Source: Chloroflexota bacterium
GTDB taxonomy: Bacteria; Chloroflexota; Dehalococcoidia; Lucifugimonadales; Australimonadaceae
Length of the DNA stretch: 52,683 nucleotides
NCBI GenBank assembly: GCA_028874795.1
Contig: JAPPHT010000029.1
Coordinates: 18,944 to 71,626 of the forward strand
Reading direction: 5' to 3'
Shown here: positions 37,438-52,683 of the stretch, piece by piece
How the letters are laid out: each line of letters opens with the position of its first letter
Numbering within the stretch: the first letter of the stretch is position 1
Notes under the pieces: generated by a model
The model's input: the letters and a program-made list of their open reading frames with translations, nothing else
Databases searched by the model: none
Told to the model about the DNA's origin: nothing
Position numbers and translations under genes: made by a program

Positions 37438-38436
37438 CTACGCCGTTCCCAGGTAGCGGAGCGCGTTCTTCCAGCCGATGAGCTCGCGCTCCTCTGCCCC
37501 GAGGCCGAGCGCGTCGAACTCCTCCTCGGGCGATGGGTTCTTGGGGCCGCCGCCCTGCCAGTCGGAACCGATCATCACCTGGCCCGCGCCCACGTGGTCT
37601 ATCAGGTAGCGCAGCGGGGCCGTTCCGAACGTGATGTCGTCGTAGTACAGCATCGATGCGTACTCCATCGGCGCCTTGGGGATGATTCTGCGTACGGCCT
37701 CGCGCGAGTGCCAGTTCTCGTCGCTGCGGGCAAGCAGTTGCATGAGCACGCCTCCGCCGTGGCTGATGCAGATCCGCAGATCGGGCAGCTCATCGAGCAG
37801 CCCGCTCCAGATGATGGACGCTCCCGCAAGACCGGATTCGATGGGGAACCCGAGCGGTGCGTCCGCGACGATGGGCGGGATGTGCGCCAGCCTGTCCGCG
37901 AAGGTAGGTCGGTTCGCGTGCGGGAACACCGCGAGGCCCAGTTCCGCGGCTTCTCTGAAGAACGGGCGGAACCGCTCCTCGCCGAGGCTTCGCCCTTCGA
38001 TGTTGGAGCGTATCTCCACGCCGTGCAGGCCGAGCTCCTTGATGACCCGCAGCTCAGCCACCGCGAGCTCGATGTCCTGCATGGGCACGGAGCCGAGTCC
38101 GTACAGACGCTCAGGCTCCTCGGCGACCATGCCTGCGATGGTCTCGTTCAGATGCCTGGCGAGGTCCGCGCCGTCCCTGGGGTCCAGGTGGTACATCAGC
38201 AGTTCGGGCAGGGGAGAGAGCACCTGCCTGTCCGTGCCCTGGCTGGTGAACTCCGCGGCGCGCTTCGGCGCGTCCCAGCAGACGTCCCGCACCGTTCGAT
38301 ACTCCTCTCCGCTGATCATGATGGTGGAGCGTTCGTCGTCCTTCGGTTCCATGGACGGGAAGGCGTCGCCGGATGGGCGGTCGGGCGAGTAGGGGAAGTC
38401 CTTCGGGACGATGTGCGTGTGCATGTCGATGATCAT
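37438..38436 (-). CDS. ACMSD-like amidohydrolase
   Basis: A 332-residue amidohydrolase-2 protein resembling aminocarboxymuconate semialdehyde decarboxylase. Metal ligands are in MIIDMHTHIVP (His6, His8), VFPHANRP (barrel His), ICISHGGG and the late Asp in MIGSDWQGG. LGLHGVEIRSN and GSVPMQD are also family blocks. Decarboxylation of an aromatic-ring cleavage product fits the nearby Rieske oxygenase and VOC protein, but the actual substrate is not readable. ATG 38436 shares a 132-bp divergent region with the VOC gene. Confidence 0.8.
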   Translation of the reverse strand: MIIDMHTHIVPKDFPYSPDRPSGDAFPSMEPKDDERSTIMISGEEYRTVRDVCWDAPKRAAEFTSQGTDRQVLSPLPELLMYHLDPRDGADLARHLNETIAGMVAEEPERLYGLGSVPMQDIELAVAELRVIKELGLHGVEIRSNIEGRSLGEERFRPFFREAAELGLAVFPHANRPTFADRLAHIPPIVADAPLGFPIESGLAGASIIWSGLLDELPDLRICISHGGGVLMQLLARSDENWHSREAVRRIIPKAPMEYASMLYYDDITFGTAPLRYLIDHVGAGQVMIGSDWQGGGPKNPSPEEEFDALGLGAEERELIGWKNALRYLGTA

Positions 38437-38464
38437 GGCTCGTTCCTCGGCGCTGCCGCGCGGC

Positions 38465-38541
38465 GTTAGCCTAACATCAGGCCGCTCCGCTCCGCAGGGG
38501 GCGGGCTGCGCCCGCTTGCTGCCCGGAGTATGCTGTTAGGC
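38465..38541. promoter_or_regulatory. Operator-like inverted repeats between divergent genes
   Basis: An 11-base palindrome GTTAG-C-CTAAC lies at 38465-38475. The 8-base word GCCTAACA (38469-38476) is repeated inverted as TGTTAGGC at 38534-38541. Between them a GC-rich hairpin (GCGGGC-TGC-GCCCGC) occupies 38501-38515. The arrangement between the divergent amidohydrolase and VOC genes suggests shared control, not demonstrated. Confidence 0.35.
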
Positions 38542-38568
38542 GAAACCACGAGTTACAGGAGGTCAGCC

Positions 38569-38970
38569 ATGGCGCTTCAGTTGGACCACACGATCGTACC
38601 CGCCTACGACAAGGTGAAGTCCGCCGAGTTCATCGCGCGGATCTTCGGGCTCACCTATGACGGGCCCTACGGCCACTTCGCTCCAGTGAAGATCAACGAC
38701 AAGCTAACCCTCGACTTCGACGACCTGCGCGAAGGCGAGACGAAGCCGCGCTCGAACCACTACGCCTTCCTCGCCTCAGACCAGGAGTTCGACGACATCC
38801 TGGGGCGCATCAAGGAGGAGGGAGTCGTGTTCGGCAGTGGGCCCGGCTCGCGCACGGACGGAGAGATCAACTACAAGCACCAGGGCCGCGGCTTCTACTT
38901 CGAGTGCGAGAACGGCCACGTGTGGGAAGTCATCACCCACACCTACATCGCCAGCTCGCTGACCAACTGA
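38569..38970 (+). CDS. VOC-family protein (glyoxalase/dioxygenase fold)
   Basis: A 133-residue single-domain vicinal-oxygen-chelate protein. It has LQLDHTIVPAYD with the first metal-type His, a central SNHYAFLASDQEFDDILGRIK block, and GRGFYFECENGHVWEVITHTY with the last acidic ligand candidate. Members include extradiol dioxygenases, glyoxalases and fosfomycin-resistance proteins. A good GGAGGT box precedes ATG 38569. The gene sits 30 bp before the DDN-like reductase and probably shares its transcript. Confidence 0.8.
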   Translation: MALQLDHTIVPAYDKVKSAEFIARIFGLTYDGPYGHFAPVKINDKLTLDFDDLREGETKPRSNHYAFLASDQEFDDILGRIKEEGVVFGSGPGSRTDGEINYKHQGRGFYFECENGHVWEVITHTYIASSLTN

Positions 38971-39000
38971 TCCCACACCCCTTCGCTAGGAGTTGCACCC

Positions 39001-39363
39001 TTGGACGACGCAGCACGCCAGGCACTGGAGACCGACAGACTGGTCGACATCACGACGACCGGACGCAAGAGTGGCAAGCCGCACCGCAAGGAGGTGCGGC
39101 TGCGCCAGTTGGACGGCCAGATCTATCTCTCCAACAACCCCGGCAAGCGCGACTGGGCGGCGAACCTGTTTGCGAACCCGGAGTTCACCTACCACCTGAA
39201 GCAGAGCGTCCAACGCGACCTTCGGGCCCGCGCCACTCTGGTGCGCGATGTCGACGAGAAGCGTGCGCTCCTCACGCGCATCCTCGAGAAGGAGGACGCT
39301 CTGGACACGGTGGAGGCGCGCGTCGCGGGCAGCCACCTCTTCCGCATCGAGGTCCTCGACTAG
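39001..39363 (+). CDS. Deazaflavin (F420)-dependent nitroreductase-type protein
   Basis: A 120-residue protein of the DDN/DUF385 family. The signature TTTGRKSGKPHRKEV (18-32) and LSNNPGKRDWAANLFANPEF are typical of F420H2-dependent reductases and F420-binding proteins. It suggests that the host makes coenzyme F420. Start is TTG 39001 after TAGGAG. It could reduce an activated double bond or nitro group of the compounds handled by the adjacent enzymes. It is convergent with the hydrolase at 39403. Confidence 0.75.
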   Translation: MDDAARQALETDRLVDITTTGRKSGKPHRKEVRLRQLDGQIYLSNNPGKRDWAANLFANPEFTYHLKQSVQRDLRARATLVRDVDEKRALLTRILEKEDALDTVEARVAGSHLFRIEVLD

Positions 39364-39402
39364 GACGGAGCGAAAGAACCGGCGCGACCGGGACTCTCTC
39401 AC

Positions 39403-40230
39403 CTAGTCCGGCAGGAAGTCCAGCAGCGCGGCGTTCAGCTCGTCTGGCACTCCCATCGGGACCCAGTGGTCGCAGTCGAAGACCACCATCTTCGATCCCG
39501 GGATGCCGGCGTGCGTCATCTCCCCCATGTCCAGCGCGTTCGTCGAGTCGTTCCTGCCCCACACCACCAGCGTCGGGACGGGGATGTGCGGGAAGCGGCG
39601 CACCGTGTTGTAGCGGCGGCGCGTCTCCATGTTGTTCATGTGGTTCAGCACGCGCTGGTAGGCCGCGAGCCGCTCCGGGTTCTGGGCCAGGGCGTAGTGG
39701 TAGTCGGCCATCGCCTCCAGGTCCACACTGGTGCCCATCCGGGTCTGCAGGCTGTTGAGGATCTGGTCGCGTGACGGGGGCTGGAACTGCACCATGCTGG
39801 GCAATTGGCGGGGCATGGCCCCGCCGCTGGCGACGAGGACGAGTTTGTTGAGCCGATGAGGGCTCTCGTAGCCGAACAGCGACGCGAGCCAGCCGCCCAT
39901 CGAGTGGCCAACGAGGTTGGTCTTCTCGAGACCCAGCGCGTCCTGGAACTCGCGCAGGAAGTCCACGAGATAGGCGAACGAGTACTCCTGCTCCAGCCAG
40001 CCCTCGCCTTTGCCCCACGCGAGCGCATCCACGGCGATGACGCGCAGCCTATTCGACAGCGGCCCGATGTTCAGCGCCCAGTCGTGCGCGCCGCTCGTGT
40101 ACCCGACTCCGTGCACGAGTATGGTGGGATAGCCGTCGCCCGCCTCTATGTAGCGGGTCGTGCCATGGCTCATCTCCACGAACTTCTCTTCGGCGTTCTC
40201 GATAACCACGCCACCGACGTTCAAGCTCAT
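39403..40230 (-). CDS. Alpha/beta hydrolase (MhpC/meta-cleavage type)
   Basis: A 275-residue serine hydrolase. It has LVHGVGYTSGAHDW at the oxyanion region, nucleophile elbow VGHSMGG with Ser110, the acid in VVWGRND and the base His in DCDHWVPMGVP. It is not a copy of the four tandem hydrolases. The spacing resembles C-C hydrolases of aromatic meta-cleavage pathways, consistent with the nearby Rieske and VOC genes, but haloperoxidase-like esterases are similar. ATG 40230 is favoured because GGAGG lies seven bases before it; ATG 40245 in frame is an alternative. Confidence 0.8.
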   Translation of the reverse strand: MSLNVGGVVIENAEEKFVEMSHGTTRYIEAGDGYPTILVHGVGYTSGAHDWALNIGPLSNRLRVIAVDALAWGKGEGWLEQEYSFAYLVDFLREFQDALGLEKTNLVGHSMGGWLASLFGYESPHRLNKLVLVASGGAMPRQLPSMVQFQPPSRDQILNSLQTRMGTSVDLEAMADYHYALAQNPERLAAYQRVLNHMNNMETRRRYNTVRRFPHIPVPTLVVWGRNDSTNALDMGEMTHAGIPGSKMVVFDCDHWVPMGVPDELNAALLDFLPD

Positions 40231-40335
40231 CTCATCCTCCGTCATGAAAATGCGCCCCTGGGGGGTGCGCCCCGGTATCGTGCGAGTGCGCGGTTCCGGT
40301 GTCAAGTGCGGGCGCATTCGTGTACGCTTTCCAGC

Positions 40336-40911
40336 ATGCAACCGAGAACGCCATTCCTCTTCTCCATGCACCCGTTGTACGCCTGGCCGCTCGCCGTCAT
40401 TACCAGTGCGGCCCTGATCTTCGCTTTGCCCCTGGCGTTCGTCGAGCCTGCGGCGGAGGCCCCGGCCTCGGGAGAGGCTGCGGGTGAGACTTCGACTGAA
40501 GCCTCGGGTGAGACGTCGGAAGACCCTCAGACTCCGAGGGAGGTGCTCTCCACTGCGGGCGTGGTCGTCCTCATTGCTCTGCTCGTCGGGTCCGTCGGGT
40601 TCATTCCCGTGATGGCGCGCCGCAAAGGGGTGAGGGCCATGTGGTGGTCCATGGGGGGTGTGGGCGCGGGCTTTCTGTACCTCTTCACCGGCGGGTTGCC
40701 CTTGATACACCCGCTCATGGTGCTGCTCGCTCTGGTCTACATGCGTGCCCAGTCGCCCGCGACACCCGCGACGGCGCTTAACGCGGCCGTGCCGGGAGCG
40801 CAGGAGGCCGCCAGTGAGGTTCGGTTCGTTGAGGCACCGCCGGAGAAGGAGCCTGAGCCGCCGCCGGTGCGCCGCCGTCCGACGCGCAGGCGCAGACGTC
40901 CGCGCTGGTAG
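40336..40911 (+). CDS. Hypothetical membrane protein
   Basis: A 191-residue protein with an N-terminal hydrophobic segment (LAVITSAALIFALPLAFV), an acidic Ala/Glu/Ser/Thr-rich linker (EAPASGEAAGETSTEASGE), then three further hydrophobic segments between about 70 and 135. The C-terminal 25 residues are proline and arginine rich, ending RRRRRPRW, and should be cytoplasmic. ATG 40336 is the first ATG before the hydrophobic part. It lies just upstream of tRNA-Leu and is overlapped antisense by the read-through tail of the recombinase frame. Function unknown. Confidence 0.5.
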   Translation: MQPRTPFLFSMHPLYAWPLAVITSAALIFALPLAFVEPAAEAPASGEAAGETSTEASGETSEDPQTPREVLSTAGVVVLIALLVGSVGFIPVMARRKGVRAMWWSMGGVGAGFLYLFTGGLPLIHPLMVLLALVYMRAQSPATPATALNAAVPGAQEAASEVRFVEAPPEKEPEPPPVRRRPTRRRRRPRW

Positions 40912-42599
40912 CGGTGTGCGGTACGATAGGTGCGGCGGGGAAGTGGCGGAACGGCAGACGCGCATGATTTAGGATCATGTGCCCAAAGCGGCGTGGGAGT
41001 TCGAGTCTCCCCTTCCCCACCAACCGTTACTGATTTCATAACTCGTCGGCTGAGGGCGATCTCCGCAACATCCGCCCCGTCGATGTCGTTGTCCAGCGGC
41101 GTGGGGATGGTGTAGTGGATGACGGCCTTCCCGGGCCGGATCGCGATCTCCTTCACGAACGACCGGATGAACGCCTTCGTCTCGGTGACCTCGCTCTCCA
41201 TCAGGAACTCGCTCATCTCCCGCGCGTAGGCCGCAATCCGCTCGACATCCTGTACGCTGGCCCTGCGCAGGGCGAGGATGGAGCGGGCCTCGTCGGCCGC
41301 CTGCTCCAGCCGCTCCTGGTTCTCCAGGTGGTGGCGGATGCGTGGGAGAATCTCCTCGGTGGTGAGATCCGTCTTCTCGACCAGCTCCCAGAGGCGGTCC
41401 ATGCGCCTGCGGATGTCGGCGAGCTCGGCGTCTGCTGCCTCGACGCGCTCCTGCTGCTCCCTGATGACGGAGTCCATCTCCTCGTTGACCATCTTGACGA
41501 GGTCGCGCATGTTGGACTCGGTGAGGATGTGCTGTCTGATCTGGTCGATGATGAGGCGCTCGAAGCGCTTGGCGTTGAGTCGCGGGGTCGCGCATTCGCC
41601 GCTGCCGCGCGAGAGGAGGGAGTGGCAGACGTAGTAGGTGTAGCGCCCGCCCTTGGCCTCCGCGGCGGAGAGTGCCTTGCCGCAGGTCTGGCAGGTGAGA
41701 AGGCCGCTGAGGAGGTAGGGGCTCGCGGTGCGGCGGGGGTGCGTGACCTTCGGGGCCTTGGAGCGCAGCATCTTCTCCACCTTCTTGAACTCCCGCTGGG
41801 AGACGATGGCGGGGAAGGCGTCCTCGACGCGGACAGGGGGCGTGTTGTCCTTGGCCCCGACTCCCCAGACGAGGGTTCCCGCGTAGGCCTCGTTGCCGAG
41901 CATGCGGTGGACGGTGGTCTTCATCCAGCGCTTGCCGTCGGGAGAGGAGACTCCCTCGCCGTTGAGGGTCTTGGTGATGTCGAGGATGCTCGTGCCGCTG
42001 AGGGCCATGGTGAAGATGCGCCTGACGACGGCGTCGAGAGGCGGGTCGAGTTCGAGGACGGGCCGTTTCTTGGCGCCGTCCTGGACGTGGGCCTTCCGGT
42101 AGCCGTAGGGGGCATGCGGGGCGACCCAGAAGCCGCGCGATGCGGCCTCCCGCATGCCGCGCACCACCTCCTGAGCGAGATTCTCCGAGTAGAACTCGTC
42201 GACGCTCTCGATGATGGCCTCCATGAGCTTGCCGGTGGGAGTGTCGTCGGCGTGCTCGGTGATGGAGACGACGCGGATGCCCTTCTTGCGGAGCATGGAC
42301 TTGAAGGCGACCGCGTGCTCGCGCTTGCGCGTGAAGCGGCTGAACTTCCAGACGAGGATCACCTGGAAGGGAGCGTTGGCCTTGCTGCCCTCGTCGATCA
42401 TGCGGCGGAACTGGGGCCTGTCTGCGACGCGTCCGCTCTCGGCCTCGTCGATGTACTCGCGGACGATGGCGTAGTCGTTCTTGTGTGCGTATTCGCGGAG
42501 CGCGCGGAGTTGAGCGGCGACGGATAGGTCGACGTCCTGGCGATCGCTGGAGACGCGAGCGTAGACGGCTGCAGTTGTCGGGTTCTGTCGGTCAGCCAT
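40737..42599 (-). CDS. Large serine recombinase (site-specific integrase)
   Basis: Site-specific recombinase of the large serine family. The N-terminal resolvase domain has YARVSSDRQ (13-21, catalytic Ser17) and VWKFSRFTRKRE; the recombinase domain follows with APYGYRK, then a zinc ribbon (LTCQTCGKAL and later Cys residues) and a long coiled coil near 370-450. The protein proper ends around VIHYTIPTPLDNDIDGADVAEIALSRR (about residue 515-520). From about 41022 on the frame is antisense to tRNA-Leu and then to the 40336 gene, so the last ~95 residues come from host DNA joined by integration. ATG 42599 follows AAGGAG. It probably catalysed insertion of this element at the tRNA. Confidence 0.85.
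   Translation of the reverse strand: MADRQNPTTAAVYARVSSDRQDVDLSVAAQLRALREYAHKNDYAIVREYIDEAESGRVADRPQFRRMIDEGSKANAPFQVILVWKFSRFTRKREHAVAFKSMLRKKGIRVVSITEHADDTPTGKLMEAIIESVDEFYSENLAQEVVRGMREAASRGFWVAPHAPYGYRKAHVQDGAKKRPVLELDPPLDAVVRRIFTMALSGTSILDITKTLNGEGVSSPDGKRWMKTTVHRMLGNEAYAGTLVWGVGAKDNTPPVRVEDAFPAIVSQREFKKVEKMLRSKAPKVTHPRRTASPYLLSGLLTCQTCGKALSAAEAKGGRYTYYVCHSLLSRGSGECATPRLNAKRFERLIIDQIRQHILTESNMRDLVKMVNEEMDSVIREQQERVEAADAELADIRRRMDRLWELVEKTDLTTEEILPRIRHHLENQERLEQAADEARSILALRRASVQDVERIAAYAREMSEFLMESEVTETKAFIRSFVKEIAIRPGKAVIHYTIPTPLDNDIDGADVAEIALSRRVMKSVTVGGEGETRTPTPLWAHDPKSCASAVPPLPRRTYRTAHRYQRGRLRLRVGRRRTGGGSGSFSGGASTNRTSLAASCAPGTAALSAVAGVAGDWARM
40937..41022 (+). tRNA. tRNA-Leu (anticodon UAG)
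   Basis: Complete class II tRNA with CCA encoded. The acceptor GGGGAAG (40937-40943) pairs fully with CTTCCCC (41012-41018), the anticodon stem CATGA/TCATG encloses the loop TTTAGGA with anticodon TAG at 40970-40972, a long variable arm follows, and the T arm is GGGAG/CTCCC with TTCGAGT. The 3' end is the junction with the integrated element that begins at about 41023. Confidence 0.95.
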
Positions 42600-43123
42600 T
42601 TGTGAGCGCTCCTTCTAGGTCGTGCCTTTGCAGTTCTGGGGTCGGCTGCGGGCAACCGAAGCCCTAAGGGGAATGGTCTGCTCCGTTCAGCGTGATGGTC
42701 AAGGGGCAGATGTCAGGTGTTCTGCTAGGTCGTACTGGTTCAGCGGGAGGTGAGATTCAGCATGGCATACGCACCGTCATTGCGAACGCTTTGGTGCAGA
42801 TCCAACGGAGGCATGTGGCTCCGCGCGGTCAGAGAGGAAGGAGTGGTTCGGTCTACAGAACATGCGCAAGGGGATTGCCGTCCCCGTTGCGCACCACATC
42901 GGCACGCGTCCGGGTGCCGCCGAGGGTCCGTGGTCCTGAACTCAATCTGGAGCTCGCGCCCGTGACGCATGACCGCGCACGGGTTCCGAGCGAGCGGGAC
43001 CCATTCCGAGGGCGGCGGCATCCAACAATCGGCCAAGAGTTGGCCTCCCCCTCCTATTCAAACCTGGGTGCCGGCTGCGTATCCTTGGGTACGAAGTCAA
43101 GCAGTTGAGTAGGGGGCTAGAGA
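42600..43123. other. Intergenic region between recombinase and methyltransferase
   Basis: About 520 bp with no convincing gene; frames on both strands are low-quality and lack good starts. A 9-base word CTAGGTCGT occurs at 42615-42623 and again at 42725-42733, exactly 110 bp apart. The region should contain the divergent promoters of the recombinase and methyltransferase and could contain recombinase-binding sequences. Confidence 0.4.
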
Positions 43124-44059
43124 GTGGCACCGAGTGCAGTCTCTCTGTTTTCCGGATGCGGCGGGACAGACCTTGGTATCCGGGAACTCGGGTTTGACAT
43201 AGCCCTTGCAAACGACGTGTGGTCAGTGGCAGCCGATCTGTACCGGGCGAACCTCCCGGATGTAAGTGTCCAACTTGGTGACGTCCGGGAAGTCAAGAGC
43301 TTCCCGAACGCGGACCTTCTCATCGGTTGCTACCCTTGCCAAGGGTATAGCCAGGGTGGGACTCGTAACCCGGCATCTTCACTGAACTATTTGTATCGTG
43401 AGTTTGATCGTGCCCTGCGGCAAATCAGCCCCAAGGCATTCATTGTGGAGAACGTCGCAGGCATGGCACATGCAAATAACCGGACCCTGTTGAATAACCA
43501 GCTTGTGCGTTTCCGATTGGCTGGTTACACGGTCTCTTACAACGTGCTTGATGCCAAGGACTACGGCTTAGCCCAGACACGCCGCCGACTATTCATAGTT
43601 GGTGTGAAGAGTACACTTGGCATGAGATATGAGTTCCCCAGTCCAACGCACGGACCTCGTGCGGGGCTTGCATATACTAGCCAACAAGAGGTCATAGGGG
43701 GTATGGAGGAATGGCCAGAAGGCCAGTATTGCTCAGAGCCACTTCACTGGTACTACATGTCCAGGCGGCGTCGACATAATTGGAACGAACCCAGCGCTTG
43801 TATAGTAGGTCATTGGCGGCATGTCCCGCTTCACCCAATAAGCCCCCCTCTTATCCGGATTGATACCGACCACTGGCAGTTTCAGTATCCAGGACCGTTT
43901 CGCCGCTTGTCGCTGGCTGAGTGCGCCGCCCTCCAGTCCTTCCCGAGTGACTACCGCTGGGAATCAGTGCGAGTGAAGGACGGGTTCATGGCAGCAGGGA
44001 ATGCGGTGCCTCCCACAATCGCAAAGGCGATAGCGTGCGCGTTGCCCGATATTTGGTGA
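43124..44059 (+). CDS. C5-cytosine DNA methyltransferase
   Basis: A 311-residue DNA (cytosine-5) methyltransferase. Motif I is SLFSGCGGTDLG (7-18) for S-adenosylmethionine, motif IV is CYPCQGYS with the catalytic Cys72, motif VI is ENV (109-111), motif VIII is QTRRR (151-155), and motifs IX and X are RLSLAECAALQSFP and GNAVPP. The target-recognition region (about 165-260) is short. It methylates cytosine in a specific site; the site cannot be read. Start is GTG 43124. It is convergent with the coupled PD-(D/E)xK-like and ParB-like genes (12 bp between stops) and near a Vsr gene, pointing to a restriction-modification role. It is AT-richer than the host genes. Confidence 0.9.
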   Translation: MAPSAVSLFSGCGGTDLGIRELGFDIALANDVWSVAADLYRANLPDVSVQLGDVREVKSFPNADLLIGCYPCQGYSQGGTRNPASSLNYLYREFDRALRQISPKAFIVENVAGMAHANNRTLLNNQLVRFRLAGYTVSYNVLDAKDYGLAQTRRRLFIVGVKSTLGMRYEFPSPTHGPRAGLAYTSQQEVIGGMEEWPEGQYCSEPLHWYYMSRRRRHNWNEPSACIVGHWRHVPLHPISPPLIRIDTDHWQFQYPGPFRRLSLAECAALQSFPSDYRWESVRVKDGFMAAGNAVPPTIAKAIACALPDIW

Positions 44060-44071
44060 TGTGCGGAATCG

Positions 44072-44998
44072 TCAGAGGGTCTTAGCTTCCTGTAAACGCT
44101 TGGCACACCACCGCTGTATCGTAGGGCTTGCATTCCAATGGAATAGTAATGATGCAACCCTAGCTCGGTCAACAACCATGTTTCCATAGTCAACGATATC
44201 GGCCCAGTCTTCGTAGTTTGGAATCCATGGCACTGCAAATGCTTGAACGGGATTGCATCCGAAGTCAATCATTCGCTTCCATTTTTCTATGTTCAGTTCT
44301 CCAAGTTTCGAGTTCCAGTCTGTTCCTGTTGAGCAATTGGCAAGCAGGACGACTTTGGAAGATCGGCTATCTGAAAATGGCTTCCAAGCGACAGCATCGA
44401 CGCCCATGTCCTTCTCACTTGCTCGAACTTGCCGAGTACTAAGGCGAGGTTGACCCATTTGCTTTGCAAGGTAGTTGAGCGCTTCGTTAGGGTGAGACGG
44501 TACTGGGTGTCTATAAGGGAATCCGAATCTAAGCGACTCCCCTGCCAAATACTGGGCGAGAGCCGCTGTGACTACTTCCTCGAAAAGCCTTCTCCCTTCC
44601 GTTTTCCCGGGTAGACCAGGAGCACTCAACAACAATAGGAATACGTAAGCGATAGCCTCATTCGCCCAAGTATCGGATGCAGTGAGAACGATACCGTCAA
44701 AGGTGAAAGGGTACCCCCTACCGATGACATCGCTTCGGCGTTGAAGCTCTTCGGAAGCATCGGCGATAGCCTCATCCTCGGCAGCATCGGGCCCAACACC
44801 GTCTTCATTGGAATCGTCAGTAGTCTCGCGGTAGGCCAGTTCCAAGTCTCCGCCTAAGGAATCTTCTGCCGATGGAGACTGGTGCAGAGCACTCCTAAAG
44901 TCCTCCAGGCTGCATGATAGCGAAGGACTGGTGAGAGCAGTAATCTCCGCTTCGTCTGCTAAGGAGTGGGCAGACTCATCAATCGGGAACCACGTCAT
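44072..44998 (-). CDS. PD-(D/E)xK-like putative nuclease
   Basis: A 308-residue protein with no close recognised family. The first 90 residues are acidic and probably flexible. The core reads RRLFEEVVTAALAQYL (Glu140/141), MGVDAVAWKPF (Asp201) and VVLLANCSTGTDWNSK (221-231). This order, E then D then a strand with a Q/N-C-x-x-G-x-x-W-x-x-K turn, matches divergent PD-(D/E)xK nucleases, although the usual E/Q-x-K appears as N-C-S, so the active site may be altered. It overlaps the ParB-like gene by one base (TAATG) and is therefore translated with it. It is the best candidate for the cutting component opposite the methyltransferase. Nuclease activity is inferred. Confidence 0.6.
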   Translation of the reverse strand: MTWFPIDESAHSLADEAEITALTSPSLSCSLEDFRSALHQSPSAEDSLGGDLELAYRETTDDSNEDGVGPDAAEDEAIADASEELQRRSDVIGRGYPFTFDGIVLTASDTWANEAIAYVFLLLLSAPGLPGKTEGRRLFEEVVTAALAQYLAGESLRFGFPYRHPVPSHPNEALNYLAKQMGQPRLSTRQVRASEKDMGVDAVAWKPFSDSRSSKVVLLANCSTGTDWNSKLGELNIEKWKRMIDFGCNPVQAFAVPWIPNYEDWADIVDYGNMVVDRARVASLLFHWNASPTIQRWCAKRLQEAKTL

Positions 44999-46107
44999 TA
45001 TTTCAGTGCCCTAACCAATCCTTGTGATTCCGTGACACAGTCATCAGCCAACTTCTTGATTGAATCGTTCGCGCGAGCGGGAGAAGCTAGTTCTGTCGCT
45101 TGAGTAAGCTTTTCTAGCGCTTGGCGAATCGACTTTTCTAGACGGGCCTCCGCAGCTGGAATTGCCTCTACTGCATCTCTGACCTTAGTGCCAGCCCTTA
45201 GCCTCTGCAGTGCCGGGGGACTCGACAGCGCCTTGGACAACAACTGAATCTCTCTTGATTCCTCAATGGCCGGTTCTATCTTTGCCTCCTTGTCGCCGTA
45301 CAGATAAGTGGAGACCTCCTTGAGTTGTGGGAGATTAGCGTCTGCTACAGGCTTTGGCATTCCCTGTGCAGCAAGGCCCAGAAAGGAGAGTACAGGCCTG
45401 AATGTCAGAGCTGTGAACAAATACGAGAAAGGAGGGGCATGGCCATTCCTCGCCGGAATCATTGATAGTGAATCAGCTTGCTCCCATACCAAGTATGCTC
45501 TCAGAAGCCGAGGTGCGGTTTCATGGCGATCACCAATTTTTTGTTGGATGGAATCAAGATCATTTCCGTCGCTCACTAGCTGGGAAACGTATCTGGCTTT
45601 CGCATAGGAATCCCATCGTTTCACGCCGGTGATGTGCCGGTATCCTAGGTATGCTAGAACGGCCGAGCGACCCTCCTCATATACTCGAACAGGGACAGAT
45701 AGTAACTCTTCCCGCCTGTCGTTGCTCAACGGAGGGGCGTTTACGCGTAAAGGGCGCCCACTGATAGGATCGATGAGGCGTTCGGTCAAACTTGGGTCCA
45801 ATAGTATCTTCAAGGCGGCGAGCCGCCGGTTACCTTCAACAATTATGAGCTTTGAAGAATCGTCTGGATCGGGAACGCCAACCAATGGTTCTTCGTCAAA
45901 ATAGCCGTTTATGGCAAAAGAATCCATCAACTCGCCCACTGAGTACGTTCTGACGATGAGGATCAAGAGTTGTTCTTGTGATGGTATCCCTTCCGTGGGA
46001 GGAAGGCGAGGATTTTCGGCGTCGAGCAGGAGGTCCTTGACTGCCCAGTCTGCGATAGGGTGGCGCTTGCGTGGACCCGCTGTGCCAACATCGTTCTGTG
46101 TAGTCAT
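44998..46107 (-). CDS. ParB/sulfiredoxin-fold protein
   Basis: A 369-residue protein with an N-terminal ParB/Srx domain: LLLDAENPRLP (27-36), NGYFDEEPLVGVP (67-79) and IIVEGNRRLAALKIL with Glu91-Gly-Asn-Arg-Arg95. In ParB the equivalent GERR box binds nucleotide. The remaining 250 residues are helical and unassigned. ATG 46107 follows TAGGAG. It is the first gene of a two-gene unit with the PD-(D/E)xK-like protein at 44072. Such stand-alone ParB-fold proteins occur in defence islands, where nucleotide-dependent DNA binding or nicking is suspected. It lies 420 bp from the divergent Vsr gene. Confidence 0.7.
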   Translation of the reverse strand: MTTQNDVGTAGPRKRHPIADWAVKDLLLDAENPRLPPTEGIPSQEQLLILIVRTYSVGELMDSFAINGYFDEEPLVGVPDPDDSSKLIIVEGNRRLAALKILLDPSLTERLIDPISGRPLRVNAPPLSNDRREELLSVPVRVYEEGRSAVLAYLGYRHITGVKRWDSYAKARYVSQLVSDGNDLDSIQQKIGDRHETAPRLLRAYLVWEQADSLSMIPARNGHAPPFSYLFTALTFRPVLSFLGLAAQGMPKPVADANLPQLKEVSTYLYGDKEAKIEPAIEESREIQLLSKALSSPPALQRLRAGTKVRDAVEAIPAAEARLEKSIRQALEKLTQATELASPARANDSIKKLADDCVTESQGLVRALK

Positions 46108-46111
46108 TCAT

Positions 46112-46526
46112 GTGCTCCTACGTTGCCTTGCCCCGTCCGGCACAAGGTTACAACGACCGGGAGGGGCTGGGAATACCCCTGCCTCGGCTCGCCCACTCCA
46201 TTAGCGATTGGAGGGGGAGCGATGAGCGGGCATCAACGGGGTGTAGCGGTTCGGCCTTGATGCACTCAGGGGTTCTAGCGGTTCTTGACTCCCGGGATGC
46301 CGGAGGCAATCCATCATTAGGTAGGGAGTGGTGGTAATGGGCGACGCAGGCATCGAGCCTGCCAACGTCATCTGCGGCAGGTGCATAGCGGATACACACA
46401 GGAAATCGGTCGAGCCGGCTCGAATCCCATGCCGCTACGCGCCGTGTCCGAGGAGCGCACGTTGGAGAAGGACCAGTTGAGTTCGCACTCGGCTGCATCC
46501 GTCGTTATCGTTGATATCATCACTTC
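46112..46526. other. Divergent intergenic region, ParB-like gene to vsr
   Basis: No gene is supported in these 415 bp. A 12-base perfect palindrome CGAGCCGGCTCG lies at about 46412-46423, and TGATATCA at 46510-46517 sits just before the Vsr start. Segments around 46330-46440 have short tRNA-like T-arm patterns on both strands, but no complete tRNA can be folded. It must contain promoters for both flanking genes. Confidence 0.4.
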
Positions 46527-46979
46527 ATGCCAGCGGAGCCACGCGCTAAAGTGAAGAATATCCTGTATCCAGTACCTACAAGCCCTTCCGTAACGAAGGC
46601 GATGCGCGCCAATCGACGGTCGGACACGAAACCTGAGGTCGCGCTCCGCTCTCTATTGCACCGCAGCGGGCTCCGGTTCAGGAAGGACTATGCAATCCGT
46701 CGGCCTGATGGCAAGGCAGTCCATTGTGATATTGCGTTCACTGGCAAGAGGGTCGCCGTATTCGTCGATGGTTGTTTCTGGCATCTCTGTCCGGACCACG
46801 GGAGAATCCCCAAATCTAACCAGGCTTACTGGATTCCCAAGCTACAGCGGAACGTCGATCGAGACAGAGCAACCGACTCTGGACTACGAGAAGCCGGTTG
46901 GCGAGTGCTGCGGCTTTGGGAGCATGTTTCCCCAGAGGATGCTAGCGTGGAAGTCCTGCGCTTGTTAGCCGAAGTCTAG
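46527..46979 (+). CDS. vsr: Very short patch repair-type endonuclease
   Basis: A 150-residue Vsr-family DNA mismatch endonuclease. Family features are RSDTKPEVALRSLLHRSGLRFR, the catalytic Asp68 in CDIAF, VFVDGCFWHLCPDH (zinc Cys83, Cys88 and His86/His91), PKSNQAYWIPKLQRNVDRDR and GWRVLRLWEH. Vsr nicks next to T:G mismatches formed by deamination of 5-methylcytosine and usually accompanies a C5 methyltransferase, as here with the gene at 43124. A subset of this family, without full Vsr residues, acts as restriction nuclease, so that role is also possible. ATG 46527 is used. Confidence 0.9.
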   Translation: MPAEPRAKVKNILYPVPTSPSVTKAMRANRRSDTKPEVALRSLLHRSGLRFRKDYAIRRPDGKAVHCDIAFTGKRVAVFVDGCFWHLCPDHGRIPKSNQAYWIPKLQRNVDRDRATDSGLREAGWRVLRLWEHVSPEDASVEVLRLLAEV

Positions 46980-47532
46980 GTGGATTGGGAGCGGACTCAC
47001 GGGTGCTTCTCCATCTGCTGCTCCGCTGACTGAGCGGCGTTCACTTGGGGGCGGAGCAGCGCGCCAGCCGTGCGGCGAACTGCCCCCTTCGTAGCCTTTG
47101 TGCTGCTCACTGCCGCTGCTGGTTTGCGCCTGCGTGGTGAGGGAACAGCACAGCCGTAGTCAGAATGACGGCTAGGAGGACATGGGACGTTGGGGAAAGA
47201 GGATTTCTGCGGTTCAGGGTACCATCCGACGGAAGGAAGTTGACGGGGATTCTTCGGTGGCTGGAGACGTCAAGGTCAACACACCAGAGCGGAGGCCCGT
47301 GATGGACGAGATGCGGGAAGCGACACCCGCTATCTCTGAGGAGAGGTGAACTTCTTGCTTCATCGAAGCGAGCGATCGCCAATCGTCTGGCTCCGCGTGT
47401 CACCGAGGCTGTTGCGCCTGAGCGGAGCCCATTGCTACACTCAGCCGAAGGCAGAACGTATGTTCTTCTCAAGCCATACACCCCATTCACTCCCGGCGCG
47501 CGACCGGGATCGGCTCTCGACGGAGCGGAGAC
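46980..47532. other. Intergenic region with inverted repeats
   Basis: About 550 bp without a credible gene; the 179-codon minus frame at 47107-47646 has no protein-like character. A 9-base inverted repeat (CTGCTCCGC and GCGGAGCAG) lies near 47020-47067. The promoter described at 47412-47441 is at the right end. Confidence 0.4.
47412..47441 (+). promoter_or_regulatory. Possible promoter for the HTH operon
   Basis: TTGCGC at 47412-47417 and TACACT at 47436-47441 are separated by 18 bp. It precedes the four overlapping small genes that start at 47533, leaving a leader of about 85 bases. Confidence 0.35.
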
Positions 47533-47721
47533 GTGCGGCAGCAGAAGCGGAGACTGACCGAAGAGCAGGAGGAGCTGCGGTTGAGCGGGCTGCGGATGCT
47601 GGCCCGCTTGATCGCGCGCCGCTGCCTCGCCGATCTGGAGCCACACAGCGACCGGGGAGCCGAAGCCGGGGGCCGTGCTGCTGATGCCGGAGACGTCGAC
47701 CGAGAGGAGAAGGCGGCGTGA
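47533..47721 (+). CDS. Small helical protein heading the HTH operon
   Basis: A 62-residue charged protein (MRQQKRRLTEEQEELRLSGL at the start, acidic and alanine-rich at the end), probably a single long helix or coiled coil. Start is GTG 47533. Its TGA overlaps the GTG start of the XRE gene at 47718, which is strong evidence that it is translated in the same unit. No family is recognised. Confidence 0.45.
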   Translation: MRQQKRRLTEEQEELRLSGLRMLARLIARRCLADLEPHSDRGAEAGGRAADAGDVDREEKAA

Positions 47722-47960
47722 AACGCAGACGGCCCTCCTCGAGGGTGAAGCTCAACCCTGATCGCGTGTGGGAGCTGCTCAACCGGCGTCACCTGAGCCA
47801 GAATGAACTGGCGGCGCTGGTCGGCACGTCGTCAGGCTACCTCTCGCAGCTGATGTGCGGGACGCGCAGCCCGTCGGCGGAGCTGCGCAGGCGGCTCGTG
47901 GACATGCTGGGCGTCCCCGACTTCGAGGACCTGTTCGTATTGGAGGCCGTCGAGGCATGA
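47718..47960 (+). CDS. XRE-family HTH protein
   Basis: An 80-residue DNA-binding protein consisting of a basic N terminus and one Cro/CI-type helix-turn-helix: LNRRHLSQNELAALVGTSSGYLSQLMCGTRSPSAELRRRLVDML. The start is GTG 47718, overlapping the upstream stop, and its own stop overlaps the ATG of the next gene (ATGA at 47957). It probably represses or times the operon and perhaps neighbouring island genes. It belongs to a run of three HTH proteins. Confidence 0.75.
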   Translation: MKRRRPSSRVKLNPDRVWELLNRRHLSQNELAALVGTSSGYLSQLMCGTRSPSAELRRRLVDMLGVPDFEDLFVLEAVEA

Positions 47961-48280
47961 GGCGTAGCAGGCGGGCTGAGGCTCATCGCTACCTGGATGC
48001 TACGTTCCTGCCGGAGGGCTTCTCTGACGACCTGCGGATTCTCAAGGAGGCGAGCGGGCTGACGTGGAACGAGCTCGCCGACGTGCTTGGCGTGGACCCG
48101 AGGCAGTTGCACCGGTGGCGCTGCGGCACGAAGCCGAGCGGGGACGGGCTGTACGCGCTGCTGCAGCTTGCCGCCCAAGTTCCGGGCGGCGTTCAGTTGA
48201 TTGTGAGAAGGCACGTCCTGGAGCCGATGACGCAGGAGTCAGCCGACGTCGGCGTCGGTTTCGGCGGCGTGAAGGGATAG
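47957..48280 (+). CDS. HTH protein, paralogue pair member A
   Basis: A 107-residue protein containing a helix-turn-helix: LPEGFSDDLRILKEASGLTWNELADVLGVDPRQLHRWRCGTKPS, followed by a helical segment. It shares the LPE-F-x8-EASGL...W-R-x-G pattern with the next gene, so they are duplicates. ATG 47957 overlaps the stop of the XRE gene by four bases. The RQLHRWRCGTK segment is the recognition-helix region. It is likely a transcription factor or a phage-type regulatory protein. Confidence 0.7.
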   Translation: MRRSRRAEAHRYLDATFLPEGFSDDLRILKEASGLTWNELADVLGVDPRQLHRWRCGTKPSGDGLYALLQLAAQVPGGVQLIVRRHVLEPMTQESADVGVGFGGVKG

Positions 48281-48285
48281 AGGCC

Positions 48286-48591
48286 ATGGGAGTTCAGCGT
48301 CTGAGATACAGGCGGGCGGAGTGGCGTCTTCCCGAGGATTTCCCAGTGCGGCTCGCGCGGTTCCAGGAGGCGAGCGGGCTGTCGACGCGGGCGCTTGCCA
48401 GTTTGCTGGGTGTGAGCCCCTACCGTCTGCGGCGTTGGAGGAACGGAGAAGACGACCCCAACCCTGCGCACCTGTTCGCGGTGCTGACAGTCGCCGGAGC
48501 GATGGGACTGCGGGACGGCGTCCTGATGTGCCCGGAGCGTGACCTTCCCGACGGGATCGATGTTGAGGCGCTGCGGCGCCGGGCTGGATGA
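48286..48591 (+). CDS. HTH protein, paralogue pair member B
   Basis: A 101-residue paralogue of the preceding gene: LPEDFPVRLARFQEASGLSTRALASLLGVSPYRLRRWRNGEDDP, then a helical C terminus. It lies 5 bp downstream (AGGCC before ATG 48286) in the same transcript. The two copies differ most in the recognition helix (HRWRCGTK or RRWRNGED), so they should bind different sequences. It ends before a convergent candidate small gene at 48626. Confidence 0.7.
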   Translation: MGVQRLRYRRAEWRLPEDFPVRLARFQEASGLSTRALASLLGVSPYRLRRWRNGEDDPNPAHLFAVLTVAGAMGLRDGVLMCPERDLPDGIDVEALRRRAG

Positions 48592-48625
48592 CCCTCTGCG
48601 GATTGCGACGTCTGAATGCCTGCGG

Positions 48626-48856
48626 CTAGGAGAGGAGCCGCTCCCGTCGCTCCTCGTCAGTGAGACTGCGGTACGATGCGCCCTCGTCATCCGTGGCTAT
48701 CACGGAATGCTGGAGCAGGGCGATGCCCACATGCACGCGATCGCGCTGCGGCTCCACATGTTGGCAGCGTTCTGCCGCCAGCATGCTCCGATGAGGGTGA
48801 CGGCAGAGCCGGTGTGCCTGGCCCGCCTCGATGTAGCCGATGCTGTAGCGTGTCAT
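48626..48856 (-). CDS. Candidate small protein, uncertain
   Basis: A 76-residue frame starting MTRYSIGYIEAGQAHRLCRH on the minus strand, convergent with the HTH operon and divergent from the Nmad3 gene. The protein-like pattern extends upstream (RVRIGDVARTVGDTLDGTRT) without an ATG, so a non-ATG start near 48940 is possible. It has a His/Cys-rich CRHPHRSMLAAERC segment. The overlapping plus-strand frame (48539-48976) is less convincing. Reported with low confidence. Confidence 0.3.
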   Translation of the reverse strand: MTRYSIGYIEAGQAHRLCRHPHRSMLAAERCQHVEPQRDRVHVGIALLQHSVIATDDEGASYRSLTDEERRERLLS

Positions 48857-49057
48857 GCCGTCCGGAAGACACTCCGTTCGTGTGCCGTCGAGCGTATCAC
48901 CTACGGTCCGCGCAACGTCCCCGATTCGTACTCTCAGCGTGAACGGGCGAGGCGACGGTATTCTGGGCGAGGCTGACCGCCGTCGGGAACATAGTGGTGT
49001 CGGAACCTGCGACGGCTGCGCCAGGAGAGAGGACTCAGCAGCGTCAGGAGTGTCGCG

Positions 49058-49945
49058 ATGAAACCGAGGAAGCTGATACTTAGCCGGAAGGGGTTCGACA
49101 GCAAGGCGGGCGGGTGCCCGAGCCCCATCTTCACCCGCGACGGCACGATGGTTTCCCTGCCGATCCCCGTACGGCAGGGCCAGACGCGGTACCGTGACCT
49201 GCACCACAACGGTGAGAACATGGGCGACCTTGTGCGTGACCTCAGCGATGGTGCCTACGGCCGCTTGGCCTACGCGAACCTCAACCCGGATGTCAACAGG
49301 GCTGTTCGCCGGGAGCGAGACGAGAGATGGCGCGGCCTGTCCGGTCAGTTGACCCCCAGTGCAAGCGGCCACCTGCTGAATCAGGCCGTCGGAATCGGCG
49401 ACGTGTTCCTGTTCTTCGGTCTGTTCCAATGGGTCGAGAAGGCGCGCGGCAAGCGTGGCAAATACCGGTTCATCTCCGACGAGCCGGCATTTCACGTGCT
49501 GTGGGGCTGGCTGCAGGTGGGCGGCGCCCACGTCCGCGACGACCTGGGGGACGACGATTTTCCCTGGGCTCAGGGACATCCCCATATGCACGAGGCCCCC
49601 AATCCATACAACCTGCTGTACTTCGCATCACGCGACCTCGACCTCGGCCGTGGCCGGATAGCTGACGGGTGCGGCGTGTTCGGCTACTACGACGACCGCC
49701 TGCGCCTGACGCGCAGTGGCGGGACTGCAACGCAGTGGCGGTTGCCGCGCTGGTTCCACCCAGGCGATAACAGGACCCCGCTGTCCAACATGGGCAACAA
49801 CAAGTGGTCGTTGTGTGACGACGGGGTCTACGTTCAGCGCACGGGCTACGGTCAGGAGTTCGTGCTGGACCTCGACGAGTACCCGGAGGGCAGGCGCTGG
49901 GTCGCCAGCCTGTGCAGGCGGTTCGGCTCGGAGCAGCCCGCCTGA
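49058..49945 (+). CDS. Nmad3-family protein (nucleotide-modification-associated domain 3)
   Basis: A 295-residue protein matching the Nmad3 family. Its N terminus, LILSRKGFDSKAGGCPSPIF followed by DGTMVSLPIPV, is the family hallmark; later blocks are FLFFGLFQWVEKARGKRGKYRF, HVLWGWLQVGG, HPHMHEAPNPYNLLYFAS and NKWSLCDDGVYVQRTGYGQEFVLD. Nmad3 was defined by comparative genomics of phage and bacterial DNA-modification clusters; its biochemical function is not established as far as I know. ATG 49058 lies about 465 bp after the HTH operon. In this island it may relate to a modified-base system together with the methyltransferase or to recognition of modified phage DNA. Confidence 0.8.
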   Translation: MKPRKLILSRKGFDSKAGGCPSPIFTRDGTMVSLPIPVRQGQTRYRDLHHNGENMGDLVRDLSDGAYGRLAYANLNPDVNRAVRRERDERWRGLSGQLTPSASGHLLNQAVGIGDVFLFFGLFQWVEKARGKRGKYRFISDEPAFHVLWGWLQVGGAHVRDDLGDDDFPWAQGHPHMHEAPNPYNLLYFASRDLDLGRGRIADGCGVFGYYDDRLRLTRSGGTATQWRLPRWFHPGDNRTPLSNMGNNKWSLCDDGVYVQRTGYGQEFVLDLDEYPEGRRWVASLCRRFGSEQPA

Positions 49946-50180
49946 ACAGCGTTTTTCGGAAGAAGTGGACTCAGCGCGACTGGAACGTCACCTCCGGCTC
50001 GTGGGCGCCGGGTGGGAATCACGCGCGCCCCAGTGGTCCCTCGTGCTCCAGCAGGCAAGACACAGGGGCTTGAAGTGTCCCTTCACTAGGCTAGACGGAG
50101 TATGATGTCTCTGGGGTTTCAAGGCATAGAGTTGAGCAACAGGCGTTGAACAGCACGACCAGCGTAGGAACATTGTAAGC

Positions 50181-51002
50181 ATGAGTCAGATCCCGTTCCC
50201 TGTACGAGAGGGAATCAATCGGAACGAGCAACTCCTTCCTCCAGAGGAGCTTCCTGACCATGTCCGCGAGAAATTGCTTGCGGATATGCGAAGCATCGCT
50301 GAAGATGCACTTCGGTTTCAAGATCTACTCTATGAACAGATGTGCCCCATCATAGCAAGAGTCCTGAACAAGACATTGCCCGCGCAACCTCAAGGGGGCC
50401 CCTTCCGCTATTATGTTCCTAAGACTGTCAAAGAGTGTTCTTGGGTAGATTTCTATGACATATGCGAAGTGACCCACAAGTGCATACTGGCGTCGGGATA
50501 CGACGCAAACACGTTTGCGAACGACACGAATTCCTATTGGGGGCACTACGGAATTGCTTGGAAGTACGAGACAGGGTGGGTTGTTCGGACACGCCCGGAT
50601 CAAACCCAGCAGGACATCAAGAAGGCGTTCCAGTTGGTGTCAACTCCTGAGTATCAAAGTGTAAATGAGCAGTACGCGAAGGCCATCGGCCACCTCAATC
50701 GTCGACCGCCTGACTATGAAAATGCAGTTGGGGATGCAGTGGGAGCAATCGAGAGAATGGCTAAGATAATCGCTGGGCAACCCAACCGAGTGCTTAGCCA
50801 GCTCACGACACGTCCACCTTTGAATGGTTCAGTGCATAGAACGCTTCTGGCCATCATAGACAAGCTCTATGCTTACCGCGGAGACCAGTCTGAACATGGC
50901 GGAGTTGGTAAAGCAGCCATTGGACCGGCGGAAGCAGAGTTCATCCTTGCGACTAGCGCAAATACCATCATATACTTGGCGTCGAAATTCCCTGCTCGAT
51001 AG
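50181..51002 (+). CDS. HEPN/Abi-like protein with RxxxxxH motif
   Basis: A 273-residue protein resembling abortive-infection C-terminal (AbiJ-type) proteins. The N terminus reads IPFPVREGINRNEQLLPPEE, the FxxRxG pattern of AbiJ N-terminal domains. The C-terminal helical domain has YENAVGDAVGAIERMAKIIAG and YRGDQSEHGG, giving Arg233-x5-His239, the HEPN ribonuclease motif. Members usually act as toxins that cleave RNA on phage infection. The gene is distinctly AT-rich, unlike flanking genes, suggesting separate acquisition. ATG 50181 is used. A 235-bp gap before it has no gene; the small hairpin TGAAG-TGTCC-CTTCA near 50075 was noted. Confidence 0.65.
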   Translation: MSQIPFPVREGINRNEQLLPPEELPDHVREKLLADMRSIAEDALRFQDLLYEQMCPIIARVLNKTLPAQPQGGPFRYYVPKTVKECSWVDFYDICEVTHKCILASGYDANTFANDTNSYWGHYGIAWKYETGWVVRTRPDQTQQDIKKAFQLVSTPEYQSVNEQYAKAIGHLNRRPPDYENAVGDAVGAIERMAKIIAGQPNRVLSQLTTRPPLNGSVHRTLLAIIDKLYAYRGDQSEHGGVGKAAIGPAEAEFILATSANTIIYLASKFPAR

Positions 51003-51141
51003 TTCTCGAAGGCTAGCCCGCATGGCGGATTTCATCTGCCGGGTTAGTGTAGATATGCGCAAGCGTTGGCAGCTCAAACGGCCATCCTTCTGAAATCTCA
51101 CACCATCTGGAAACGCAAACCGAAAGAAGGGAGAGAATCGC

Positions 51142-52203
51142 GTGAGATACCAGTTGGCCGTGGGGGTGTTGCTGGTACTGGCCGCGGCTTGCGCTTGTAG
51201 GCCAGAGCCCGCCCCGACTCCCACGCCTACCTCTGCGGCAACGCCGACCTCAACACCGATGCGAGCTATCGCTACTCCTGCCACGCAGCGCATGGCGGCA
51301 CCCACGGCAACACCTACGGTCGTACCGACAGGAATGGCAACACCCACACCGGTACTCACGGCAAGGGCGACGCCGACCGCTACCCCTGTCCCGGCGCCCC
51401 TCATCTTGGACTTCAAGCCCATCATCGCGAGTGAGGCCGCTTGGGACTGCGTTGCCGGTCACGATTGGCCGACCAGCTTCGATCGCGAGAGGGACCCTGG
51501 CAACTTGATACTTCGGGACGTTGACGGCTACACGACCCGCTGCGGCTGGCACGAGGCGTTCCGCTCCCAGGCCAAGCGTCCGGAAGCCGTGTACTACCAG
51601 CTCTACGTCCATCCGGATGCCGTGGATGTGGGCGAATGGGACAGGGACAGGCGTTCCGCATTCGAGGAAGTTACGAAGGAGGTCTCCTTCCTAACTGGTC
51701 TGCGATTCGCCCCGTACGTGTCCGGGGAACATGATCTGGATGATCGGCTCCTCCTGCGGCTCGATGACACGCTGACGCTGATTGCGGCCTGCGATTCGCC
51801 CGAACACGGCATCGCGTCCTGCGGTAAGTATGGTCTGTACGGCTTCCTCGAAAGGGAGCGAGGCCGGCCCGGCTACCCAGTCCGGCCCTCGGTCGGCATC
51901 GACGTTACACGAGTTACGGGCGGACGCGAGTTCCGGCATGTCCTTAGGCACGAACTCCTGCACGTGCTGTTCGGGTTCTACCACGCCTATCAGGGTCCCA
52001 GCGTCCTCACCGAGTCCTACATGCCGGGGGAGGAACCCGACGGGTTCACCCTACAAGACGAGGAGATGCTCGGACTATACGGTGCCATCCCTGCGGGTAT
52101 GCCTTGGGAGGAGATTCAAGGCCGTGCCTGCGTAGGGGTAGGGGATCAGTGCTACCGTCTCTATGAATGGTTCGAAGAACCTTGGTGGGAGTGGGACCAG
52201 TAG
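51142..52203 (+). CDS. Lipoprotein with putative HELLH zinc-protease site
   Basis: A 353-residue secreted lipoprotein. Signal LAVGVLLVLAAACAC ends at a lipobox Cys and is followed by a ~65-residue Thr/Pro/Ala-rich linker built of TPTP and ATPT units. The globular part contains REFRHVLRHELLHVLFGFYHA, with HELLH at 270-274 and a third His seven residues later (281), a metzincin-like spacing longer by one residue. Conserved cysteines (WDCVAGHDW, TRCGWH, AACDSPEHGIASCGK, RACVGVGDQC) suggest disulfides. Start is GTG 51142 after AAGGGAGAG. A surface protease of the host cell envelope is inferred; the family is not recognised. Confidence 0.65.
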   Translation: MRYQLAVGVLLVLAAACACRPEPAPTPTPTSAATPTSTPMRAIATPATQRMAAPTATPTVVPTGMATPTPVLTARATPTATPVPAPLILDFKPIIASEAAWDCVAGHDWPTSFDRERDPGNLILRDVDGYTTRCGWHEAFRSQAKRPEAVYYQLYVHPDAVDVGEWDRDRRSAFEEVTKEVSFLTGLRFAPYVSGEHDLDDRLLLRLDDTLTLIAACDSPEHGIASCGKYGLYGFLERERGRPGYPVRPSVGIDVTRVTGGREFRHVLRHELLHVLFGFYHAYQGPSVLTESYMPGEEPDGFTLQDEEMLGLYGAIPAGMPWEEIQGRACVGVGDQCYRLYEWFEEPWWEWDQ

Positions 52204-52282
52204 CGAAGGCGGGCAGACTGGTTTTCGTCGTCCCTGGAGGAGAGCGGCCCGGCTGCGTCCACCACTGCTTCGTAAAGCGCCG

Positions 52283-52302
52283 TCTTCATCGAAAGATGAA
52301 GA
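52283..52302. other. Perfect stem-loop with GAAA tetraloop
   Basis: TCTTCATC (52283-52290) and GATGAAGA (52295-52302) form an 8-bp stem closed by GAAA, a stable GNRA tetraloop. It lies 80 bases after the lipoprotein stop. No T-run follows, so terminator activity is uncertain; it could also be a structured RNA or protein-binding site. Confidence 0.45.
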
Positions 52303-52419
52303 GAAGCACCGGGCATGCGGGAGCGCGGGCTAGGAGCCTACGGGTGGTAGGATGGCGCCATCACCAAAGCCGAAGGCACCTTGTGACGTACAATACGTGC
52401 AAGTGCAGCAGAAGGAGTC

Positions 52420-52632
52420 ATGGGATTGTCCAGGGAGCACATAACGCACTACCTCCATGGTCTCAACTGTCCCATCCCCGGCTGCGGCAGACCTATGACC
52501 ACCCGATACGGGTCATCGTTCGGCTGCTATCCCTGCGGCCTGAAGATCGAGTTCTCGGGGGTGATGAAGGACAGGCTGCGCGTCGGCGAGCCCCATCCTG
52601 TGCGCGGCCTCCCCAGATTCAATCCGCACTAA
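52420..52632 (+). CDS. Small zinc-ribbon protein
   Basis: A 70-residue protein with two knuckles, Cys17-x4-Cys22 and Cys36-x2-Cys39 (CPIPGC and CYPCG), the pattern of a zinc ribbon. ATG 52420 follows AGAAGGAGTC, a strong ribosome binding site. The rest is short and polar. Such proteins often contact nucleic acids or partner enzymes in phages and islands. It is complete and ends 51 bp before the window edge. Confidence 0.6.
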   Translation: MGLSREHITHYLHGLNCPIPGCGRPMTTRYGSSFGCYPCGLKIEFSGVMKDRLRVGEPHPVRGLPRFNPH

Positions 52633-52683
52633 GGATGCTCTGAATAACCCGTCAACGTTGAGTTGAGCGGATGGACGGGGTTG

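Follow-up and report, generated by a model that had tools for sequence, protein, structure and literature searches.

Three adjacent genes of a Chloroflexota bacterium, encoding a ParB-type protein (A), a PD-(D/E)xK-fold protein (B), and a C5-cytosine DNA methyltransferase (M), probably constitute a restriction-modification-like defence system, with A and B as the restriction unit and M protecting the host. They are located in a window of 52,683 bp (contig JAPPHT010000029.1, positions 18,944 to 71,626), which is the whole stretch of DNA analysed. The original prediction had proposed a composite module of a C5 methyltransferase, a ParB-fold protein, a PD-(D/E)xK-fold partner, and a Vsr gene; the first three were found to be kept in other genomes, whereas Vsr was not retained as part of the core.

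The M gene (43124..44059, forward strand) encodes 311 aa from a GTG start and matched PF00145 with an E-value of 5.5e-57. The cysteine codon of its catalytic PCQ motif is at 43337-43339 (+), and the other C5 methyltransferase motifs ENV, QTRRR, and GNAVPP are also present. On the reverse strand, A (44998..46107, 369 aa) is followed by B (44072..44998, 308 aa), and the stop codon of A (TAA) and the start codon of B (ATG) overlap by one base (TAATG, 45000-44996). M and B are convergent and 12 bp apart, the M stop being at 44059 and the B stop ending at 44072. Thus, both the complete C5 methyltransferase facing a two-gene pair and the one-base overlap joining that pair, as originally described, were borne out by the open reading frame check, the PF00145 match, and the sequence itself. 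A gene for a Vsr-family mismatch endonuclease (46527..46979, +) lies beyond the pair, as predicted, divergent from A, and matched TIGR00632 above the cut-off (E 2.2e-39; 134.4 bits against 97.85). All four genes proved intact at their originally predicted positions on inspection of reading frames and sequence. The G+C content was 51-56% across this stretch versus about 66% in the flanks, which suggests horizontal acquisition, and A is present as a single copy in this genome.

The AlphaFold model of A, built with 88 relatives, had a pLDDT of 91.6 and a pTM of 0.82. It shows, in order, a ParB-CTPase fold, a helix-turn-helix (HTH) region, and long C-terminal helices forming a coiled coil. Residues 17-298 aligned with KorB (8qa9) at a Z-score of 10.6, and the model aligned with ParB-CTPgammaS (7bnr) at 9.4. 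Box I (N32-P33-R34) and Box II (E91-G-N-R-R95; 45823..45837, reverse strand), the latter being the site of the ParB nucleotide-binding arginine patch, were invariant in the 89-row alignment, which agrees with the ParB-like N-terminal domain with an EGNRR box recognized originally. The proposed search with PF02195-type profiles gave a divided answer: no ParB family was matched in Pfam, and the ParB fold was recovered by AlphaFold. The TIGR00180 match was weak (E 0.01), and a PDB sequence search with A returned nothing meaningful. The fold, the Box II arginines, and the HTH are shared with the ParB, KorB, and Noc CTP clamps; however, those have a ParA neighbour, while A adjoins nuclease and methyltransferase genes. 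A ParABS partition system was rejected, as A is accompanied by B, M, and Vsr and has no parA next to it. According to a survey of the fold, ParB-CTPase-fold proteins bind CTP, ATP, or GTP, and their sequences give no reliable prediction of specificity (PMC12704722).

For B, the AlphaFold model (pLDDT 90.6, pTM 0.89) showed a C-terminal PD-(D/E)xK nuclease core, in line with the structure anticipated for this gene. Residues 112-290 aligned with FokI (Z 7.4), PaqCI (7.1), Can2 (6.8), MspJI (6.7), and BsaWI (6.7), as well as with BspD6I, and the best aligned structures mostly belonged to PD-(D/E)xK superfamily nucleases. MspJI was the top Foldseek match (E 8.5e-4) and was reached by the PDB sequence search at an E-value of 0.5. 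Since a Z-score of 7.4 is within the range of unrelated matches, the assignment was drawn from the many PD-(D/E)xK rows together with the motif, by which B is probably a PD-(D/E)xK-fold protein and a putative nuclease subunit. No Pfam, NCBIfam, or PADLOC family was found for B; it matched two PHROGs, 3984 and 14650, neither with an annotated function. MspJI/AspBHI and FokI share the fold of this region with B, and MspJI also a D...Q-type motif, but these nucleases carry their own recognition domain, which is absent from B. MspJI cleaves modified DNA, whereas B adjoins a methyltransferase gene.

The catalytic-type motif of B (44306..44398, reverse strand) includes D201 (44396-44398), N221 (44336-44338), and K231 (44306-44308). 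Among the core residues originally proposed, D201 was invariant (171/171 readable sequences), E140 was only partly conserved (E in 96, Q in 47, and A in 22 of the 171), and N221, from the predicted NCSTG segment, corresponds to a position occupied by Q in 164/171 sequences. The window copy shares N221 with one relative, and five others have H or R. A catalytic-type lysine was found at position 223 or 230-232 in all 171 sequences; it follows the Q by two residues in 26 (Mrr-type Q-x-K), lies near 231 in 144, and occurs at both sites in one. Active-site lysines are known to migrate in the PD-(D/E)xK superfamily. The activity of the window copy is uncertain because of N221 and the variable motif I residue E140, although D201 and K231 are in place. 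In the helical N-terminal part of B, D15, E18, and R88 were invariant, and this part might be, as a guess, the interface with A.

The conservation of the cassette was computed on relatives of A, taking the best 80 of 182 from viral contigs and the best 80 of at least 528 from genome contigs; in the genome contigs, a single sequence gave nothing and an alignment of A was needed to find relatives. Profile searches placed B immediately after A in 151 of the 154 fetched loci that had room for it. In 122 of 132, a DNA methyltransferase is the direct neighbour (C5 in 52, D12 N6-adenine in 43, and N6/N4 in 27), though these frequencies are not an unbiased census, since the loci were picked as best matches to A. 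The co-occurrence count proposed originally thus finds the pair kept beside C5 methyltransferases elsewhere. Ten loci with room had no adjacent methyltransferase; hence, a small number of pairs may work alone or with a distant enzyme. In a search independent of the A-based retrieval, the B profile was run against 400 genomes of the phylum and found B in eight, all of which also encode A. At least 15 bacterial phyla and numerous phages carry the cassette, and many A-B copies lie on ordinary genome contigs. The A-B pairing is real, and its association with a methyltransferase is beyond chance.

The distance matrices of A and B were correlated with r of 0.93-0.96 within each methyltransferase class; those of A and M among C5 members gave r of 0.42. 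Between the phages Wphi and 12474, M is 98% identical, against 32% for A and 22% for B; reader and mark may thus not have co-evolved strictly. In the FastTree phylogeny of A, in which the window sequence forms a long branch, a supported branch separates the C5 partners from the rest, where D12 and N6/N4 enzymes replaced each other at least seven times. As D12 and N6/N4 methyltransferases replace the C5 enzyme, C5 chemistry is not essential to the cassette.

M shares 49% identity with Mth of Wphi, and its closest PADLOC profile was DruM2/DruM (PDLC00027; E 3.7e-98). Between motifs VIII and IX of the C5 enzymes, where the target is recognized, the window M and most partners are conserved to roughly the same degree as in the catalytic core; a single shared target is suggested, though not proven, by this. 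Of the 52 loci in which the adjacent methyltransferase is a C5 enzyme, 3 contain a Vsr gene, and none of the 70 with other methyltransferases does. Because of this rarity, the four-gene core was rejected; the core comprises three genes, with Vsr as an optional C5 accessory.

In the P2-like phage Wphi, gp98 corresponds to A, gp96 to B, and the convergent mth to M, and this gene order is repeated in 12474III and in Pseudomonas phage D14A. The cassette or its methyltransferase was matched in 225 of 5,426 complete E. coli genomes, and in 103 of these the match spans most of the cassette. All five divergent E. coli types inspected have A-B and a convergent M between the portal and replication genes, a site reported as a defence-system hotspot in P2-like phages (PMC9519451, PMC9122126). 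Wphi offers a ready E. coli model for the cassette.

The closest known relative of the cassette is PD-lambda-5, which protects E. coli against a broad range of phages (PMC9519451). Residues 21-176 of the window A aligned with positions 7-161 of the 466 in PD-Lambda-5_A (E 3.5e-15), and PD-Lambda-5_A models were matched by 21/21 A members tested, the window match being confined to the N-terminal part. The D12 methyltransferase of one locus (L034) matched PD-Lambda-5_B at an E-value of 4e-101. The ParB-like N-terminal domain of A, the methyltransferase of the D12 members, and carriage by prophages are shared; in contrast, PD-lambda-5 consists of two genes and lacks B, and its A is longer, at about 430-610 aa in most PADLOC models. 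Membership of the window system in PD-lambda-5 was rejected, since its A matches at the ParB-like N-terminus only and lacks the C-terminal part, B is additional, and M is a C5 enzyme. In two loci (L129 and L135), A-B is followed in one gene run by a PD-Lambda-5_A gene and a D12 methyltransferase. A true PD-lambda-5 pair with a full-length PD-Lambda-5_A match is present in L135, the only one of the two in which the PD-Lambda-5_B identity of the methyltransferase was tested. A single methyltransferase appears to serve both modules.

As in Type II restriction-modification systems, a DNA methyltransferase adjoins the gene of a PD-(D/E)xK-fold nuclease, but in the cassette a ParB-CTPase-fold protein is almost invariably encoded alongside the nuclease, and a single A-B family pairs with three methyltransferase classes. 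GmrSD and DUF262 type IV systems likewise link a ParB-related NTP-binding domain to a nuclease; A, however, is canonical ParB-like with an HTH rather than DUF262, and the GmrSD nuclease is HNH, whereas that of the cassette is PD-(D/E)xK, encoded by a separate gene, and linked to a methyltransferase. GmrSD type IV was rejected, as neither A nor B matched PF03235 or an HNH domain. Druantia type II was also rejected: only the DruM-like methyltransferase fits, and no open reading frame of more than 620 aa that could encode the large helicase DruE overlaps 38000-52683, where the contig ends. No published name or description of the A-B-M cassette, and no assay of any of its members, was found in the open-access papers searched, so an earlier description elsewhere is possible; ParB is not mentioned in PMC9122126 or in the restriction-modification review PMC12707154, and a term search of the ParB-fold survey (PMC12704722) showed no such operon. 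Within this search the cassette corresponds to no named system, in line with the original remark that the four-gene set was not recognized as one, and B is without a Pfam or PADLOC family.

The description of PD-lambda-5, which has the N-terminal domain of A and the D12 type of M in common with these loci, as compacted RM+Abi (PMC9519451) raises the question of abortive infection, in which M and A would detect a phage that interferes with methylation or DNA, and B would then damage host DNA to stop the infection. The two gene runs joining A-B to a PD-lambda-5-type A gene with a single D12 methyltransferase point the same way. Nevertheless, A and B are without a separate toxin domain, and a protective methyltransferase with a DNase-type fold fits direct cutting more simply, so this explanation is considered unlikely. 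The ParB fold and HTH of A, together with the many copies on prophages and plasmids, could also be read as a non-nucleolytic module, with A and B stabilizing, partitioning, or regulating a mobile element and M serving an epigenetic role. This is improbable, given that A adjoins M, B, and Vsr with no ParA gene, that B members keep the nuclease-type D and Q and the alternating lysine, and that numerous copies lie outside mobile elements on ordinary genome contigs. Least probable of all is a chance neighbourhood of an orphan methyltransferase and Vsr with an unrelated A-B pair: M is exchangeable and, among C5 members, evolves separately from A-B, but the methyltransferase is directly adjacent in nearly all loci with room, at fixed positions.

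In the favoured restriction-modification-like system, M would methylate its target in the host genome, and A and B would act as one co-evolving restriction unit. A protective mark is argued for by the linked DNA methyltransferase, which may be of any of three chemistries, and the distinction of self from non-self would depend on it. A most likely reads both the DNA and whether the mark is missing, probably by acting as an NTP-controlled ParB-type clamp. It would then recruit or activate B, which would cut unmarked invading DNA. The computed evidence covers the conservation of the cassette, the two folds, the catalytic-type motif, the exchange of methyltransferases, the co-evolution of A with B, and the position in the P2 defence hotspot; restriction itself, the self/non-self rule, the dependence on an NTP and the step that uses it, the reading and sliding by A, and the cut site of B are inferred from these. 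Where Vsr is found, it would repair T:G mismatches after deamination of 5-methylcytosine. A bolder reading, possible but held with less than even confidence, is that of a new restriction class, in which a nucleotide-switched ParB-type clamp loads on unmethylated sites and slides or recruits a separate PD-(D/E)xK nuclease, with three exchangeable mark chemistries.

If the proposed function is true, a widespread restriction class would be added, spanning at least 15 phyla, more than 500 relatives of A from a single scan of genome contigs, and P2-like prophages of E. coli, which has been missed by Pfam and PADLOC through B. Canonical ParB-like proteins would gain a restriction function, and the poorly understood PD-lambda-5 would be linked to nuclease-based systems. 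It is the nucleotide-clamp reading, if true, that would make the cassette a new class.

Several loci had unusual arrangements. A human faecal phage (L027, MT835579) carries two convergent A-B pairs, a C5 methyltransferase, a Z1 gene, and Vsr on one scaffold. Without a directly adjacent single methyltransferase, A-B is some kilobases from a Z1/DUF4420 operon in L025 and some kilobases from a C5 methyltransferase in L036 and L038. In L198, where no methyltransferase was found, A-B adjoins a DndE-domain/ATPase gene, a possible link to phosphorothioate modification.

In the window, a large serine recombinase open reading frame (40740-42599, reverse strand) crosses with its 3' end the tRNA-Leu gene (40937-41022, +), which looks like integration of an element at the tRNA 3' end. 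No long direct repeat marking a right attachment site was found up to the contig end, which is also the window end. A run of small HTH-type genes (47718-48591, +) contains internal direct repeats (48042-48099 and 48362-48419) that are 71% identical. Near the defence module, a gene for nucleotide modification associated domain 3 (Nmad3) was found at 49058-49945 (+; PF18754, E 2.2e-60). The gene at 50181-51002 (+) matched the PADLOC candidate PDC-S32 (E 5.4e-26) and, weakly, AbiJ_NTD4, which suggests a defence island.
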